Assembly (NCBI RefSeq): GCF_000316665.1
Contig: NC_019678.1
Coordinates: 7,225,001-7,289,000 of the forward strand
Direction: 5' to 3'
Length of the DNA stretch: 64,000 nucleotides
From: Rivularia sp. PCC 7116
Lineage (GTDB): Bacteria > Cyanobacteriota > Cyanobacteriia > Cyanobacteriales > Nostocaceae
The position numbers and the translations under genes are program-made. This document shows, piece after piece, positions 4,750 to 29,190 of this stretch. Each line of letters begins with the position of its first letter. The first letter of the stretch is position 1. The notes beneath the pieces were generated by a model. It did not search any database. It was not told the DNA's origin and worked only from the letters and a program-made list of their open reading frames with translations.

Positions 4750-7089
4750 TCATTCCCTCAACTCATCGAGCGGTAAATAATCGCGTAAAGCTTCTAATTC
4801 TGCGGCTTTGACTACTGGGATTGATAATACTGCCCGATCGGTTTTAGGTGAAAATAATTCTTCTAGTTGATTTAAAGCGGTTAATCTACCGCACAATAAT
4901 AATTGATCGCGGTTTTGCAGTTTGGTTTTGCTGTTGGGATAGCGAATAAATTTTCTGTCTCTTCTAATTGCTTGTATTTCTACGCCATATTCTTGACGGA
5001 TGTCCAATTCACCCAAAGTTTTTCCTAAAATTAGCGATTTTGTGTTGAGTTTAACCCATTGACAGGCGCTGTTTTCTCCGGGAACTGTTGCTTTCCCCGA
5101 TGCGAATTCGTCTAGGGCTGCTATTTCTTCGGATGAACCAACTACTAAAAGCTTATCTCCTTCTTCTAAAGTGCTTTTTGCGTCGGGGTAATCTATTTCT
5201 AACCCGTTGGTGCGCTTAATTGCCATTAGACTGACTCCTGTTAAGTAGCGCATATCAGCTTGTTCTAAAGTCATTCCTACCAAAGGCGAGTTCATCGGTA
5301 GGGAATACCAGCGTTTGTTTAAATCGGCTGTGGCTCGTCGCAAATCGCGGGCTACTTCGGAGGCTGATTGTTCGGGACGAAAATCTAAATAGTGACGTTG
5401 GCGGATTTCCTGGATTTCTCGCTGTACTGTTGCTGGTGAGAAGCCAACATCTGTTAGTAGAAACGAAACCATTTCTAAACTAGCTTCAAATTCTGGCTGT
5501 ACAACTTCTCGCGCTCCTAGTTGGTATAGTGCTTCAATATTTTTATTGTTTGTAGCGCGCACTACTATATTTAATTCTGGATATAATTCTAAACTGCGCC
5601 GCAGTGATAGACGAGTACTCATAGGATCGGGGAGAGCGATCGCTATTGCTTTAGCTTGGGTAACTCCTGCTGTTTCTAAGACGTGAAAACTCACGCAGTT
5701 GCCGTATACATAAGGAATTTTAGCTTCCCGTAATTGTTGAATTATCCTTTCGGATTGGTCTATAACTACAACTGGGAGTTTGTGAAAAAGCAGCAGTTTT
5801 ACTAAGTTTTTACCGACTCTACCGTAACCGCAAACTATAACATGGTCTTTTATCGGTAAGTCTTCAGCAACGTCGAGGGGTTTGCCTTCACCATTAAGAT
5901 AAGGCTTTAGCCAAGGCATTGATTCAGCCCAATCGAATATAATCGGCACCAATCGCAATAGGAAGGGCGTTAAGATTAATGTGACTGCTGTAGTTCCAAG
6001 AATAAGTAAATATACAGAGCGAGACACTAATCCTAGCTGTTGCCCTTCGCTAGCCAGAACAAAGGAAAATTCACCAATTTGAGCAAGTCCTAAGCCTGCA
6101 ATCAAAGCAGTTTTTAACGGATAGCGGAATATTTTGACTAAAGGAGTAATGATTAAAAATTTACCAATAAATACCAAGGTAACTAATCCTAAAATTAATT
6201 CCAGATTGTTCCATAAAAATACTGGATCGATTAACATTCCGATTGCAGCAAAGAACAAACTAGCGCAAATGTCTCGCAATGGCTCAACATAAGTTAAAGT
6301 TTGGTCGGCGTATTCCACTTCGGAAATCATCAAACCGGCGACAAATGCGCCCATTTCAATGGAAAGTCCTAGTTCTTCTGTTAATAAAGCAATTCCCAAA
6401 CATAAAGCTACTACACCCAACAAAAACAACTCCCGGCTTTCAGTTTGTGCCAGCAATCGCAATAAAGGCGGAATCAACCATATACCTGTAGCAACAGCAC
6501 CTGCTGCAAACAAGCCAATCTTTAACAGAGCCATCAGTACCGCAACACCAAGAGTTTCCACGGGTTGATCGAGAGCAGGTAATACTGCTAGCATTAATCC
6601 CAATGCTAAATCCTGTACCACCAAAATTCCCAACATTACCTGTCCGTGGGGAGCTTCTGTTTCATTGCGCTCCATCAAGCATTTTAGAACTACCGCAGTA
6701 GATGACAAAGATAAAATCGCCCCCAGAAATACACCTTGAACCGGCGAACTTACCCAGCCAACTCCCACCGACACCAGAGCAGTAACTCCGATAGTTAAAA
6801 TAATTTGTAAACCACCACCACCCAAACTTATTTTCTTAACTTTGTTGAGTTCGGCAAAAGAAAACTCTACCCCCAGGGCAAACAACAAAAAAGCAACACC
6901 GAACTGCGCTAAAGTCTCAATTTGAATAAACTCTTTGATTAAACCGAAACCGGCTGGCCCAACCATCATGCCGCCTACGAGATACCCTAGTAAAACGGGT
7001 AAACCTAAAAGCGAAGCAAACAGTCCCCCACCCGCAGCCACAGCGAGAACCGAAACTAAATCAACTATTAATCTAAAATCTTCCTGCAC
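4750..7089 (-). CDS. Cation:proton antiporter of the KefB/CPA2 type with RCK domains
   Basis: An inner-membrane monovalent cation/proton antiporter. The first 400 residues are a string of hydrophobic helices with the CPA2 signature LVVQDLALGL and conserved G-rich segments (GYLVGGMMVGP; GLGLAQIGEFSFVLA). A TrkA-N (RCK) Rossmann domain follows from about residue 415, with the nucleotide-binding motif CGYGRVGKNL. Two TrkA-C repeats end the protein (SPLVGMTLEQADMRYLTGV..., and LILGKTLGELDIRQEYGVE...). The 779-residue length fits two TrkA-C domains. NAD(H) or another ligand on the RCK part probably gates transport. K+ and Na+ are both possible substrates, and the sequence does not tell which. It appears monocistronic. 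Confidence 0.88.
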   Translation of the reverse strand: MQEDFRLIVDLVSVLAVAAGGGLFASLLGLPVLLGYLVGGMMVGPAGFGLIKEFIQIETLAQFGVAFLLFALGVEFSFAELNKVKKISLGGGGLQIILTIGVTALVSVGVGWVSSPVQGVFLGAILSLSSTAVVLKCLMERNETEAPHGQVMLGILVVQDLALGLMLAVLPALDQPVETLGVAVLMALLKIGLFAAGAVATGIWLIPPLLRLLAQTESRELFLLGVVALCLGIALLTEELGLSIEMGAFVAGLMISEVEYADQTLTYVEPLRDICASLFFAAIGMLIDPVFLWNNLELILGLVTLVFIGKFLIITPLVKIFRYPLKTALIAGLGLAQIGEFSFVLASEGQQLGLVSRSVYLLILGTTAVTLILTPFLLRLVPIIFDWAESMPWLKPYLNGEGKPLDVAEDLPIKDHVIVCGYGRVGKNLVKLLLFHKLPVVVIDQSERIIQQLREAKIPYVYGNCVSFHVLETAGVTQAKAIAIALPDPMSTRLSLRRSLELYPELNIVVRATNNKNIEALYQLGAREVVQPEFEASLEMVSFLLTDVGFSPATVQREIQEIRQRHYLDFRPEQSASEVARDLRRATADLNKRWYSLPMNSPLVGMTLEQADMRYLTGVSLMAIKRTNGLEIDYPDAKSTLEEGDKLLVVGSSEEIAALDEFASGKATVPGENSACQWVKLNTKSLILGKTLGELDIRQEYGVEIQAIRRDRKFIRYPNSKTKLQNRDQLLLCGRLTALNQLEELFSPKTDRAVLSIPVVKAAELEALRDYLPLDELRE

Positions 7090-7164
7090 AGGCTTATAAA
7101 AAAATATATTTATTCCTTGTATCCAGCATACAAAGTTTTGTGAAGACTGTCTCAGGAATCGGCG

Positions 7165-24162: not shown

Positions 24163-25932
24163 TTAAATTCCCCTAGCCTCACCTTCACCTCTGGAATCGG
24201 CAGCGCCTTCAAGGGTACCGTCTGGTTTGACAATAATCAGGTTTGAATTGCCCCAAGGTTTGGTTTGTCTAATTTTGTGTCCTCGTCGCTTTAATTCTTG
24301 CAAAGTAACTGCATCCAATCCCCAAGGTTCGACGCGCAATGTATCGGGGAACCATTGGTGATGTACGCGGGATGCGGAAACTGCTGCGGCTGCATCCATT
24401 TCGTATTCTAAAACGTTAAGGATAATTTGCAGAACTTGAGTGATGATAGTGCTACCTCCAGGGGTGCCCAATGCCATCCGCAATCTTCCATTTTCGGTGA
24501 CAATTGTAGGAGTCATGCTTGATAGAGGAGTTTTCAAAGGTGCAATGGAATTAGCTTCGTTGCCCAGTAAGCCGAAAGCATTGGGGACTCCTGGGGCTGC
24601 GGCAAAATCATCCATTTCATTATTCAGAACTATTCCCGTTCCTGGTGTGACTACACCGGCACCAAAACCCAAGTTGATGGTAAAAGTCAAACTGACAGCG
24701 TTTCCTTGTTCGTCGATAACTGTCAGATGACTTGTTTCTGTAGATTCTCGGTATTTTTTATTGTTTGATTTTGGATTGGGAATTGCAGGAATTAATCTTG
24801 ATGGTTGAGTTTGACTAAATTTCTGTAACGTCTCTTTGCTAACTGGCTTTATTTGAGTTGAAGGGTTTGCACGCTGCATATTAATTTGTCGGCGGCGCAG
24901 TTTTGCATAATCCGGATTGATTAGCTGCTGTTGGGGAACTTTAACAAAATCGGGATCGCCTAAATATTCCGAACGGTCAGCATAAGCAATTCGCATAGCT
25001 TCTACTATTAAATGTATCGCGTCGGGGTGGTGCCATCCCAAAGATTTTAAGTCTGTATCGCCGATAATATTTAACATCTGCAATAAATGAATGCCCCCCG
25101 ATGATGGTGGTGGCATTGAACAAACCCTAGCTTTACGAAAATTACCGCAAACTGGATCGCGCCAAATTGGTTTATAGGATTTTAAGTCTTCTAAGGTAAT
25201 CAAACCGCCATTTTTCGCCATATCGTCGGCAATAGCACGAGCGATTCTTCCCGTATAGAAACTTTGAGGATTTGCAGCGATATCTTCTAAAGTATTTCCT
25301 AAGTCTTTCTGTACGAGCCTTTCTCCTGGTTGATAATAATTTCCGTCACGAGTAAAAATAGTTCTTGCCGCTTGATTGCTAGCAATCATTCTCTTGCGTC
25401 TTTTAACAGCACCCACAAACCTATTTTTGACAATAAAACCATTTTTCGCCAATCTAATTGAAGGCGAAACAACTGTTTTCCAAGGTAATTTGCCATAACG
25501 TTGATGAACTTCATACATACCCGCTACAGTGCCTGGTGTACCCACGGCTAAATAACCGTTAATGCTTGCATTGCGACGTACCTTACCGGCATCATCCAAA
25601 TACATCTTTTTTGTTGCTTTTAAAGGAGCGCGTTCGCGAAAGTCTAAAGCCTTGATTCTACGTTTCTTGGAGTCGTGTAATAACAAAAAACCACCACCAC
25701 CGATTCCAGCAGAAAAAGGTTCCACCACCGAAATTGCAAAAGTAGTCGCTACGGCAGCATCTACAGCATTACCGCCTTTTCGTAGCATTTCTAACCCTGC
25801 TTCGCTTGCTAAAGGATGGGCTGAAACGACCATTGCTTTTTTACCGCGCAAAGGTTGTTTAAAAGCAGCACTAGCAATTTGAGCGTAAAAAATAACGCTT
25901 AATAAAATGATTGACCGAGATAAAACACGCAT
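24163..25932 (-). CDS. ggt: Gamma-glutamyltransferase
   Basis: Periplasmic or secreted N-terminal-nucleophile hydrolase that cleaves the gamma-glutamyl bond of glutathione. A signal peptide is visible (residues 1-22, ending IASAAF). The proenzyme cleaves itself before Thr400 in ETSHLTVID, which becomes the nucleophile of the small subunit. Other family marks are GGNAVDAAVAT, EPFSAGIGGGGFLLL, MPPPSSGGIHLLQML and GTPGGSTIITQVLQ. The 589 residues match the family. It probably recycles glutathione or detoxifies conjugates in the periplasm. The TAA stop lies at the edge of a heptamer array. Confidence 0.93.
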   Translation of the reverse strand: MRVLSRSIILLSVIFYAQIASAAFKQPLRGKKAMVVSAHPLASEAGLEMLRKGGNAVDAAVATTFAISVVEPFSAGIGGGGFLLLHDSKKRRIKALDFRERAPLKATKKMYLDDAGKVRRNASINGYLAVGTPGTVAGMYEVHQRYGKLPWKTVVSPSIRLAKNGFIVKNRFVGAVKRRKRMIASNQAARTIFTRDGNYYQPGERLVQKDLGNTLEDIAANPQSFYTGRIARAIADDMAKNGGLITLEDLKSYKPIWRDPVCGNFRKARVCSMPPPSSGGIHLLQMLNIIGDTDLKSLGWHHPDAIHLIVEAMRIAYADRSEYLGDPDFVKVPQQQLINPDYAKLRRRQINMQRANPSTQIKPVSKETLQKFSQTQPSRLIPAIPNPKSNNKKYRESTETSHLTVIDEQGNAVSLTFTINLGFGAGVVTPGTGIVLNNEMDDFAAAPGVPNAFGLLGNEANSIAPLKTPLSSMTPTIVTENGRLRMALGTPGGSTIITQVLQIILNVLEYEMDAAAAVSASRVHHQWFPDTLRVEPWGLDAVTLQELKRRGHKIRQTKPWGNSNLIIVKPDGTLEGAADSRGEGEARGI

Positions 25933-26183: not shown

Positions 26184-26253
26184 AAAATCTTTATAATTAA
26201 GAGACTTGCACTAACAGATTAAATCGTTAATTAATAATTATTAGTTGATTTAC

Positions 26254-26847
26254 ATGGAAACAAAAGGCGATTTACCCCTTAGTTTTTTAAAAGATAAAAA
26301 TACATTACCAATCATTGAAGCATATTTTGAATTTGTTCAACTTAAACAGCTTTATCGTCAAGGTTGGCTGAATCAAGGTATATCACCTCAAAACTGTGAA
26401 AGCGTTGCAGAACATTCTTTTTGTGTAGCTTTGTTAGCTTTATTTTTAGCAGACCAATATTCAATCAAAGTAGATAGCGCCAGAGTAATTAAAATGGCAT
26501 TAATTCACGATTTAGGAGAAGTATATGCCGGAGACTTTACCCCCACAGATAATATTGATAAAAATCAGAAGTATCAATTAGAGAAACAATCTGTCGTCAA
26601 AGTTTTAGGAAAACTTCGCAATGGGCATGAGTGGATTGCGTTATGGGAAGAATACGAACAAGGTGAATCAGCAGAATCGCAATTTGTTAGACAGCTTGAT
26701 AAATTAGAAATGGCTTTACAGGCTAGTGTTTACGAGCATCAAAACAATCTAAATTTATCTGTGTTTTTTGCTTCAGCTAATCGCAGTTTATCTTCAGTCG
26801 AATTAAAGTTTATATTTAGTAATTTAGAATTATTGAGAGTTTCATAA
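26254..26847 (+). CDS. HD-domain hydrolase (YfbR-like 5'-nucleotidase)
   Basis: A metal-dependent phosphohydrolase of the HD superfamily. The metal ligands are visible as H in VAEHSFCVALLALFLA, the HD pair in MALIHDLGEVYAGDFTP, and the distal Asp in FVRQLDKLEMALQ. The arrangement resembles YfbR, which acts on deoxynucleoside 5'-monophosphates, and related HD proteins near 200 residues. The ATG at 26254 is a better start than the TTG three codons earlier. It converges with patX; a hairpin terminator lies in the 144-base gap. Confidence 0.85.
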   Translation: METKGDLPLSFLKDKNTLPIIEAYFEFVQLKQLYRQGWLNQGISPQNCESVAEHSFCVALLALFLADQYSIKVDSARVIKMALIHDLGEVYAGDFTPTDNIDKNQKYQLEKQSVVKVLGKLRNGHEWIALWEEYEQGESAESQFVRQLDKLEMALQASVYEHQNNLNLSVFFASANRSLSSVELKFIFSNLELLRVS

Positions 26848-26960: not shown

Positions 26961-26982
26961 CCCCAATTAATTTGGGGCTTTT
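26961..26982 (+). terminator. Rho-independent terminator of the HD hydrolase gene
   Basis: CCCCAA, loop TTAAT, TTGGGG, then CTTTTT. It works on the plus strand; the minus-strand T-run is short, so it is a poorer terminator for patX. Confidence 0.75.
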
Positions 26983-26991
26983 TATATATTG

Positions 26992-27183
26992 CTAAGAATC
27001 AATCCTTGTATTGATGTATAAACGACCGCTACCACGATGATTTTTTCGTGGTTTTGGCGATCTAGTTTTTGCTTCTTGACGAATATTTAGTTGATTTTTA
27101 GGAGTTTGAAATATAGAATTTTGGATAAACGAAGGTGACGCTACTAAAATTAATAGCGATAAAACAGTGTATATAATTTTCAT
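26992..27183 (-). CDS. patX: PatX-like heterocyst-inhibition peptide precursor
   Basis: A 63-residue protein with a hydrophobic secretion-type N-terminus (MKIIYTVLSLLILVASPSF) and a basic tail containing HRGSGR close to the C-terminus (KPRKNHRGSGRLYINTR). This is the layout of PatX, the widespread cyanobacterial precursor of an RGSGR signal that binds HetR and blocks heterocyst formation in neighbouring cells. PatS, the other RGSGR protein, is much shorter and lacks such a clear secretion segment. The ATG at 27183 is preferred over an upstream Met at 27270, because the longer version would put a second hydrophobic segment in front and overlap the predicted promoter. An NtcA-type promoter lies directly upstream. 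Confidence 0.8.
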   Translation of the reverse strand: MKIIYTVLSLLILVASPSFIQNSIFQTPKNQLNIRQEAKTRSPKPRKNHRGSGRLYINTRIDS

Positions 27184-27224: not shown

Positions 27225-27268
27225 AACCTACATCCGTTATCACACTGATTACAAGTAAAATAGAATAC
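27225..27268 (-). promoter_or_regulatory. NtcA-type activated promoter of patX
   Basis: On the minus strand the sequence reads GTA-N8-TAC (27268-27255), then exactly 24 bases, then TAGGTT (27230-27225). This is the canonical GTAN8TAC-N20-24-TAN3T layout of nitrogen-control promoters in cyanobacteria. The -10 box is about 42 bases before the patX ATG, leaving a short leader. I infer activation by NtcA under nitrogen limitation; binding is not shown. Confidence 0.65.
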
Positions 27269-27611: not shown

Positions 27612-28463
27612 ATGCAAAGTGTTGTTGTGACTGGTGTTTCTACAGGCATCGGTTGGGGTGCGTTGAAAGTACTAAGCAGTAAAGGTATTCATATATTTGG
27701 TAGCGTTCGGAAGTCGGAAGATGCAGAACGTTTATCTACTGAATTTGGCGACAGTTTTACACCTTTAAGACTTGATGTTACTGACGAAAAATCTGTAGGT
27801 GAAGCTGCGGAACAAGTTCGCGAGCAAATTAATGGTAATAACTTGCTTGGTTTGGTTAATAATGCTGGAATTGCCATCGGTGGTCCATTAATGCATCAAT
27901 CTATTGCCGATTTTAGAAAACAAATCGAGGTCAATTTAACTGGACAACTAATTGTGACTCAGGCTTTTTTACCTTTATTGGGGACTGATTCTACTTTCCA
28001 AGGAAAACCGGGAAGAATTATTAATATCAGTTCTGTTAGTGGAAAAATTACGCCACCATTTCTTGGCGCTTATAGCGCATCTAAGTGTGGATTAGAAGCA
28101 ATTTCTGAAGCGTTACGTCGCGAACTAAATATTTATGGGATAGATGTAATTATAATTGGACCGGGTTCCATAGCCACACCAATTTGGGATAAGGCGGAAA
28201 AGATGGATTTTTCTCAATATGAAAATACTATATTTGCAGCTTCAATTCAAAAGTTTCTCGATTTCGCATTGAAAAAAGGACGTTCCGGTTATCCTGTAGA
28301 AGCCGTAGGAGAATTAATTTGGAAGACTTTGACTGTTGCAAAACCTCGGGTTCGCTATCCTATTGTTCCCAATCATTTCTTGAATTGGACGATTGCAAGA
28401 TTGCTTCCCAAACGAGTTGTAGATAATATCATTGCCAAGCAACTTGGTTTAAACCGCGATTAA
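27612..28463 (+). CDS. Short-chain dehydrogenase/reductase
   Basis: NAD(P)-dependent oxidoreductase of 283 residues. The cofactor motif is VTGVSTGIGWGALK, then NNAGIA, the active-site Ser in INISSVSGK, and the catalytic YSASK. The C-terminal extension (VGELIWKTLTVAKPRVRYPIVPN, LPKRVVDNIIAKQLG) is typical of the hydroxysteroid/retinol dehydrogenase-like subgroup. The true substrate is unknown. It stands alone, followed by a MITE-like repeat. Confidence 0.9.
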   Translation: MQSVVVTGVSTGIGWGALKVLSSKGIHIFGSVRKSEDAERLSTEFGDSFTPLRLDVTDEKSVGEAAEQVREQINGNNLLGLVNNAGIAIGGPLMHQSIADFRKQIEVNLTGQLIVTQAFLPLLGTDSTFQGKPGRIINISSVSGKITPPFLGAYSASKCGLEAISEALRRELNIYGIDVIIIGPGSIATPIWDKAEKMDFSQYENTIFAASIQKFLDFALKKGRSGYPVEAVGELIWKTLTVAKPRVRYPIVPNHFLNWTIARLLPKRVVDNIIAKQLGLNRD

Positions 28464-28845: not shown

Positions 28846-29190
28846 TTAATACCGACGGTAAGTACGATAACGACATACTCTACGGTTGCGTTTGTAATAG
28901 CAGGTGCGACGACGGTAAATCCGGAAGGGGCGACGGTAGCGACGGCGGTAAATCTTACGAACTCGATAGCGACGACGAGGGCGACGGCGGCGATAAACCC
29001 GACCACGGCGGTAAACTCGGCGAGTTCGATAACGTCCAGCCACTAACTCTTCTTTAGGTGTTTCTGATTGAATTTCTACTACAGATTTTTCGGCATTTCT
29101 TGAAATTGCTGCATTAACTGGAGGTGCTACTGATAATACAGTCGAAGTTGCAACTAATCCTAAAGCGGCAAATTTAATTAATTTTAACAT
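28846..29190 (-). CDS. Secreted Arg/Tyr-rich small protein
   Basis: A 114-residue protein of unknown function. It has a clear signal peptide (MLKLIKFAALGLVATSTVLS, cleavage after VNA about residue 27), then an acidic linker (EKSVVEIQSETPKEE), then about 62 residues in which roughly half are Arg and about a fifth Tyr, in R-Y and V-Y-R-R units (RVYRRGRVYRRRRPRRRYR). Two Cys near the end (RRTCYYKRNRRVCRY) could form a disulfide. The polycationic, aromatic tail suggests binding to an acidic polymer such as sheath polysaccharide or teichoic-like material, or an antimicrobial action; neither is shown. The opposite-strand frame here is only a shadow of the low-complexity repeats. The gene is alone, with no partner in sight. 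Confidence 0.7.
   Translation of the reverse strand: MLKLIKFAALGLVATSTVLSVAPPVNAAISRNAEKSVVEIQSETPKEELVAGRYRTRRVYRRGRVYRRRRPRRRYRVRKIYRRRYRRPFRIYRRRTCYYKRNRRVCRYRTYRRY

Follow-up and report, generated by a model that had tools for sequence, protein, structure and literature searches.

Does a cyanobacterium that holds a canonical PatX keep a second precursor of a HetR-inhibiting hexapeptide, and what would control its expression? The question is raised by a 63-residue frame in the window, by which we mean the whole stretch of 64,000 nucleotides analysed from Rivularia sp. PCC 7116 (contig NC_019678.1, positions 7,225,001 to 7,289,000). In the standard model of heterocyst patterning, a differentiating cell makes diffusible HetR inhibitors of early patterning from HetR/HetZ-dependent DIF1 promoters, and this production results in local activation with lateral inhibition. 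Rivularia and its relatives are tapering cyanobacteria that carry their heterocysts at the filament base, and the heterocyst pattern of the genus differs from that of Anabaena.

Reading frame and relation to PatX

The frame occupies positions 26992-27183 of the minus strand (27183 to 26992), a strand left unstated by the first-pass annotation, which had described a 63-residue frame with a hydrophobic N-terminus and HRGSGR near its C-terminus; these features are present, and frame 1 of the plus strand of the same interval contains several stops. The translation (MKIIYTVLSLLILVASPSFIQNSIFQTPKNQLNIRQEAKTRSPKPRKNHRGSGRLYINTRIDS, 63 residues followed by a stop) begins with a hydrophobic secretion-type N-terminus (codons 1-18, 27130..27183, minus strand) that is kept across the orthologue alignments and would be a candidate Sec-type signal, and residue 18, which is S or G in seven of seven orthologues, is a possible cleavage point. 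HRGSGR, the presumed HetR-inhibiting hexapeptide, covers residues 49-54 (27022..27039, minus strand) and is followed by the nine-residue tail LYINTRIDS (26995..27021, minus strand). This tail had been thought longer than expected for PatX, a view contradicted by canonical PatX tails of 0 to 43 residues across 30 genomes (10-14 residues in 22 of the 30); the six orthologues with RGSGR have tails of 9-12 residues. The preference for a PatX over a PatS layout was sound, since the frame combines a hydrophobic N-terminus, a basic/proline spacer, HRGSGR and a short tail within 63 residues and is not a very short peptide ending in RGSGR. The ATG at 27183 is kept in seven of seven orthologues and the frame upstream of it, open for 49 codons in the window genome, is closed by a stop within 3 to 15 codons in the remaining six, so that a 92-residue frame started at a TTG was discarded as the gene. 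The 63-residue ORF has no Pfam match.

A complete scan of the window genome (8.73 Mb, three contigs) for the hexapeptide returned exactly two sites coding for HRG(S/T)GR, namely canonical PatX and the window ORF; both are short ORFs that begin with a hydrophobic segment and carry the motif close to the C-terminal end. The same pattern read backward, as a control, occurred at five sites, and therefore conservation, not the site count, is the signal. A chance origin of HRGSGR was ruled out by its conservation among orthologues and by the codon model presented below.

The NCBIfam PatX model (NF047413) gives the window ORF 13.7 bits (E 0.082), below the curated cut-off of 30, and a six-frame genome scan at E <= 10 gives it 12.3 bits (E 2.35); this threshold is also passed by matches in 12 of the 14 control genomes. 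The canonical PatX of the genome scores 54.4 bits and is encoded 3.18 Mb away, at C1:4072104-4072289 (MRKAISLLATSIVFGSLAVNFQ...KPRTPHRGSGRREFMGYSNHA), which excludes the window ORF from that role. Across 60 relatives the model matched 46 genomes at E <= 0.01, 43 of them over the cut-off and with all eight genomes of the genus among these, and no control genome matched in that scan; four of the 60 (G036, G044, G046, and G055) had two or three matches that reached or approached the cut-off. The best reading is that the window ORF is a second, non-canonical PatX-type precursor beside canonical PatX, and a conserved precursor of HRGSGR like this one can escape PatX surveys that go by the family score only.

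Profile-profile comparison of six orthologues with 16 canonical PatX sequences gave E 7.9e-8, carried by the C-terminal block, which alone gave E 2.7e-9; one alignment mode returned a block of 17 C-terminal columns and another 53 columns at 26% identity. No likeness to PatX was detectable before the motif, where the score was 11.8 and the 95th percentile of shuffled columns was 12.2. Because the similarity is confined to the C-terminal block, common descent with PatX is not demonstrated, and what the window ORF appears to have in common with PatX is its predicted architecture and ligand.

Orthologues, wider distribution and genomic surroundings

Orthologues were found in seven of the eight genomes of the genus, the window genome counted, and canonical PatX in all eight; the named relatives are Rivularia sp. 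MS3, Calothrix parasitica NIES-267, Plectonema cf. radiosum LEGE 06105, and Rivularia sp. T60_A2020_040. No copy was found in G003, a genome of the genus that is 84% complete. With the window ORF as query, 11 of 60 genomes matched at E <= 0.1; the seven genus orthologues were strong matches (E <= 5e-9) and the other nine rows were weak (E 0.009-0.08), several of them with internal stops. HRGSGR is unchanged in six of the seven orthologues although its codons vary synonymously, and it is the longest invariant run of the alignment (six residues; permutation p 0.027); the orthologue of G004 (L012/L056), which lies in a different genomic place, carries the natural variant HRGGSR. In a codon model (our own one-ratio implementation, with hand-set topologies), omega was 0.375 for six sequences and 0.456 for seven, with omega = 1 rejected in both cases (p = 5e-5 and p = 3e-4, respectively), and canonical PatX of seven genus genomes gave 0.314. 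Pairwise NG86 ratios among orthologues ranged from 0.22 to 0.97, and the excess of third-position variation among them was not significant (p = 0.16). These omega values (0.38-0.46) indicate purifying selection on the frame, and neither the absence of RGSGR from the orthologues, six of seven having it, nor the missing codon-level conservation that the first-pass annotation had regarded as evidence against its reading was observed.

Beyond the genus, a profile (A1) searched against 217 family genomes matched 25 genomes at E <= 0.01 in 28 rows, comprising the seven orthologues, the C-terminal parts of 15 canonical-type PatX, two short stretches without the motif, and four loci outside the genus, with NRGSGRR in G083 and G026 and YRGGGR in G035 and G089; canonical PatX was confirmed in G026 and G035. 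A second profile (A2), run against 388 genomes of the order drawn evenly from a larger group, matched five genomes at E <= 0.003, two of the genus, G035, and two with DIF1-type PatX genes (G230 and G232), and added nothing. The loci in G083 and G026, both of genus g20, are small ORFs ending in NRGSGRR plus a tail, with an NtcA-type box, TAN3T at 23 nt, and other neighbours. Among the genomes searched, the second precursor is confined to the genus and possible counterparts in g20. The loci in G035 and G089 (L100 and L102, genus g29) are small secreted-type ORFs (MKILALAVPLLIAVAAPSFAQ...PYRGGGRR) in which RGGGR replaces RGSGR, and they lie near a transaldolase-like gene, identified by eye. Over the 3.1 kb examined, these g29 genes have no promoter box and no neighbours in common with the window gene, and therefore kinship with it is not claimed.

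A search with an RG(S/T)GR pattern yielded 108 sites. Among the 100 matches listed, 26 fit RG(S/T)G, two of which are PatX genes, and RG(S/T)GR is in frame in 18 of the other 24; frames ending at the motif numbered three among the same matches (L132, L144, and L145), with L144 alone PatS-like. This ORF (G000:C1:7353900-7354900, minus strand), about 0.1 Mb from the window gene, ends in CCDERGSGR followed by a stop. Other precursors repeat the motif: a PatX-type precursor of 201 residues (L165, G043:C156:25500-26700, plus strand) has 11 RG(S/T/G)GR units after a single hydrophobic N-terminus, and L161 (G055:C7) has three such units, so that many copies of the signal could be released from one precursor such as L165. 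Besides, two PatX-type ORFs have variant motifs, PPRGTSRR in L158 (G046:C13) and NRGNGRR in L163 (G056:C84), which join HRGGSR and YRGGGR as natural variants of the presumed HetR ligand.

The immediate surroundings of the window gene hold genes for a gamma-glutamyltransferase (ggt, 24163-25932, minus strand), an HD-domain protein (26245-26847, plus strand), and a short-chain dehydrogenase (SDR, 27612-28463, plus strand), which do not form a heterocyst gene cluster. The ggt neighbour is common to six of the seven loci (window and L051-L055), and the SDR gene lies on the other side in five of the seven (window and L052-L055). With a gap of 491 nt before the next ORF, L051 cannot accommodate the SDR gene, which is missing from this position, and at E <= 1e-60 no SDR match was obtained in G004 or G003. 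An intact HD-domain gene occurs in the window and in L052 and a fragmented one in L051, and in L054 the place of this gene between ggt and the PatX-like gene is taken by a pair resembling XisH/XisI by eye (6359-7101). A HetN-like role for the neighbouring SDR was rejected, its translation containing no RGSGR. The HD-domain gene is convergent with the PatX-like gene, and a hairpin between them (26961..26977, reported on the plus strand with no strand assigned; one found by the terminator scan, 0.2 expected) may be a terminator shared by both. Also in the window, an ORF of 114 residues (28846-29190, minus strand) combines a secretion-type start with a body rich in Arg and Tyr; searches of Pfam and NCBIfam at E <= 1 returned nothing for it.

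An NtcA-type promoter without DIF1

Upstream of the window gene there is an NtcA-type box, GTATTCTATTTTAC (GTA-N8-TAC; 27255..27268, minus strand), at -85 to -72 from the ATG, followed after 24 nt by TAGGTT, a TAN3T box of the -10 type (27225..27230, minus strand). GTA-N9-AC is found at -84 to -86 in seven of seven orthologues, with TAN3T 24 nt further on in each, and also in the two g20 genes, so that all nine sequences have GTN10AC with TAN3T at 23-24 nt. The four GT...AC positions are invariant across the seven genomes, and column shuffling gave p = 0.002 for an invariant GTN10AC in the seven orthologues, an optimistic value because the box was noticed before testing. Canonical NtcA-activated promoters have been reported to carry GTAN8TAC centred near -41.5 together with a TAN3T -10 box (PMC3898017), a geometry that would fit here with a transcription start some 36 nt upstream of the ATG.

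DIF1 (TCCGGA) was found upstream of none of the seven genes, window gene and orthologues. In the seven canonical patX genes of the genus that were scanned, it is present at -63 in every case, and GTN10AC at -91 in every case; because canonical patX also carries GTN10AC, this box is not in itself a distinguishing feature of the window gene. In a set of 30 canonical patX genes that takes in these seven, 28 have DIF1 and 27 have GTN10AC 20-36 nt upstream of it; the two exceptions for DIF1 are a gene from another family (L043) and one that reads TCCGGG (L049), and five further patX genes of the family (L168-L172) all have it. Of 12 parsed PatX-type ORFs from other families, a set to which L158 and L163 (RGTSR and RGNGR) do not belong, nine have no TCCGGA within 300 nt. 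Second PatX copies and PatX genes without DIF1 thus occur in other families and multiplicity is not new; what is of interest is that, next to a conserved canonical gene, DIF1 is consistently missing and the promoter is of the NtcA type.

Because canonical and window-type promoters both have GTN10AC and some similar letters, GGATG(C/T)AG, the window promoter might descend directly from that of canonical patX; of seven comparisons between the two types, six were well within the shuffled range and the remaining one stood at 22 of 500 shuffles. Between the genus and g20, the best four of 14 promoter pairs lay at 5 to 10 of 1000 shuffles. Control by a HetR site was ruled out, as GGGN5CCC is absent within 450 nt upstream in six of the seven orthologues, with two overlapping matches in G006 only.

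Possible role, competing explanations and known systems

The HetR of the window genome is encoded at C1:4600367 and has R223, E253, E254, D256, D270, and D278 all present. Contacts of PatS6 with E253, E254, D256, D270, and D278 have been reported, along with an effect of R223 on binding (PMC4649674), and the PatX of Nostoc is described as exported and cleaved by PatP, yielding HRGTGR, which inhibits HetR (PMC12756182). In Anabaena, loss of PatX is reported to matter mainly without PatS or with nitrogen present (PMC7761841). Since PatX yields an inhibitory HRGTGR and the six HetR contact residues are present, the window ORF plausibly yields an HRGSGR that inhibits HetR. In this view the hydrophobic N-terminus would direct export of the precursor, extracytoplasmic processing would release HRGSGR or a similar peptide, and this peptide, by binding to the hood domain of HetR in receiving cells, would keep HetR from switching on heterocyst genes there. 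Because the promoter is without DIF1 and looks class II NtcA-activated, transcription should follow nitrogen status (2-oxoglutarate/NtcA), and this putative NtcA control would be more direct than the HetR/HetZ-dependent DIF1 loop of canonical patX. Judging from these sequence features, we give a probability of about 0.6 to an additional secreted HRGSGR precursor that inhibits HetR under the control of NtcA and nitrogen status instead of the DIF1 loop.

A further source of the hexapeptide under an NtcA-type promoter would place one inhibitor beyond the DIF1 loop, so that a textbook patterning circuit of bacteria would be wired differently in this genus. More tentatively, and less probably than not, Rivularia and its relatives may have a dedicated nitrogen-gated HetR inhibitor, uncoupled from HetR/HetZ feedback and driven by NtcA in nitrogen-starved cells, whether heterocyst-bound or not. 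If so, cells throughout the filament would face a higher threshold for differentiation, which could contribute to confining heterocysts to the base of the filament in these tapering organisms. No second PatX of Rivularia is described in the parts of the literature that we consulted (PMC12756182, PMC7761841, PMC7377430, PMC7476756, PMC11298460, PMC3898017, and PMC4649674), and the study that defined PatX (Elhai and Khudyakov, 2018; 10.1111/mmi.14003) may list the gene.

Three other explanations were weighed. The gene could be an ordinary PatX, duplicated and diverged, that is kept as a redundant HetR inhibitor and whose promoter difference has no regulatory meaning. The several PatX copies per genome elsewhere in the order and the PatX-type ORFs of other families without TCCGGA would agree with such redundancy, which we nevertheless consider unlikely: DIF1 at about -63 is near-universal in the canonical patX of the heterocyst-forming family, and its absence, together with a different conserved spacing between box and TAN3T in seven of seven orthologues, argues for changed control. 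In Anabaena, loss of PatX is reported to matter mainly without PatS or with nitrogen present (PMC7761841).

Decay seems more improbable still. A copy losing its function, with the motif persisting only through the short divergence time, would account for an omega above that of canonical PatX (0.38-0.46 against 0.31), for HRGGSR in G004, and for the missing copy in G003, but it is at odds with the rejection of omega = 1, with a motif that is the longest invariant run despite synonymous codon changes, and with the invariant GT...AC promoter positions. It is very improbable, moreover, that the gene encodes a secreted peptide that acts on something other than HetR, or serves another function, and came to HRGSGR by convergence. 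The lack of detectable PatX homology outside the C-terminal block and the YRGGGR of the similar-looking g29 ORFs point in that direction, as does the PatX of Leptolyngbya BL0902, reported to act largely independently of HetR (PMC11298460); against it, the hexapeptide is the same as in the canonical PatX of the genus and the HetR of the genome keeps the contact residues. The preferred reading therefore remains a second, NtcA-controlled HRGSGR precursor that would act on HetR, and the initial proposal of a PatX-like precursor was right in kind, as to layout, conservation, purifying selection, HetR contacts, and a promoter that looks nitrogen-regulated, and wrong in identity, because the canonical patX of the genome lies elsewhere and this ORF falls below the model cut-off and has no DIF1; it is partly supported.

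Compared with known systems, the window ORF is most readily set beside PatX (asl2332 of Anabaena/Nostoc PCC 7120), with which it shares the small ORF, the hydrophobic N-terminus, the basic/proline-rich spacer, H-RG(S/T)GR, the short tail, co-occurrence with HetR in the window genome, and an upstream GTN10AC; it differs in its low model score, in lacking likeness outside the C-terminal block and DIF1, and in being a separate locus in a genome that already holds canonical PatX. PatS, described as a peptide of 13-17 residues ending in RGSGR (PMC7476756), has the same presumed HetR ligand, whereas the window ORF has 63 residues, a secretion-type start, and a nine-residue tail, and the genome has the separate patS-like ORF ending in CCDERGSGR. 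HetN likewise carries RGSGR within a longer precursor but is dehydrogenase-like, whereas the window ORF matches no Pfam family. Regarding its promoter, although the exact GTAN8TAC occurs in only three of the nine sequences, the gene resembles class II NtcA-activated promoters of the glnA and nirA type in having GTN10AC and a TAN3T -10 box at about the right spacing, with the centre near -41.5 for a start site about 36 nt upstream of the ATG.
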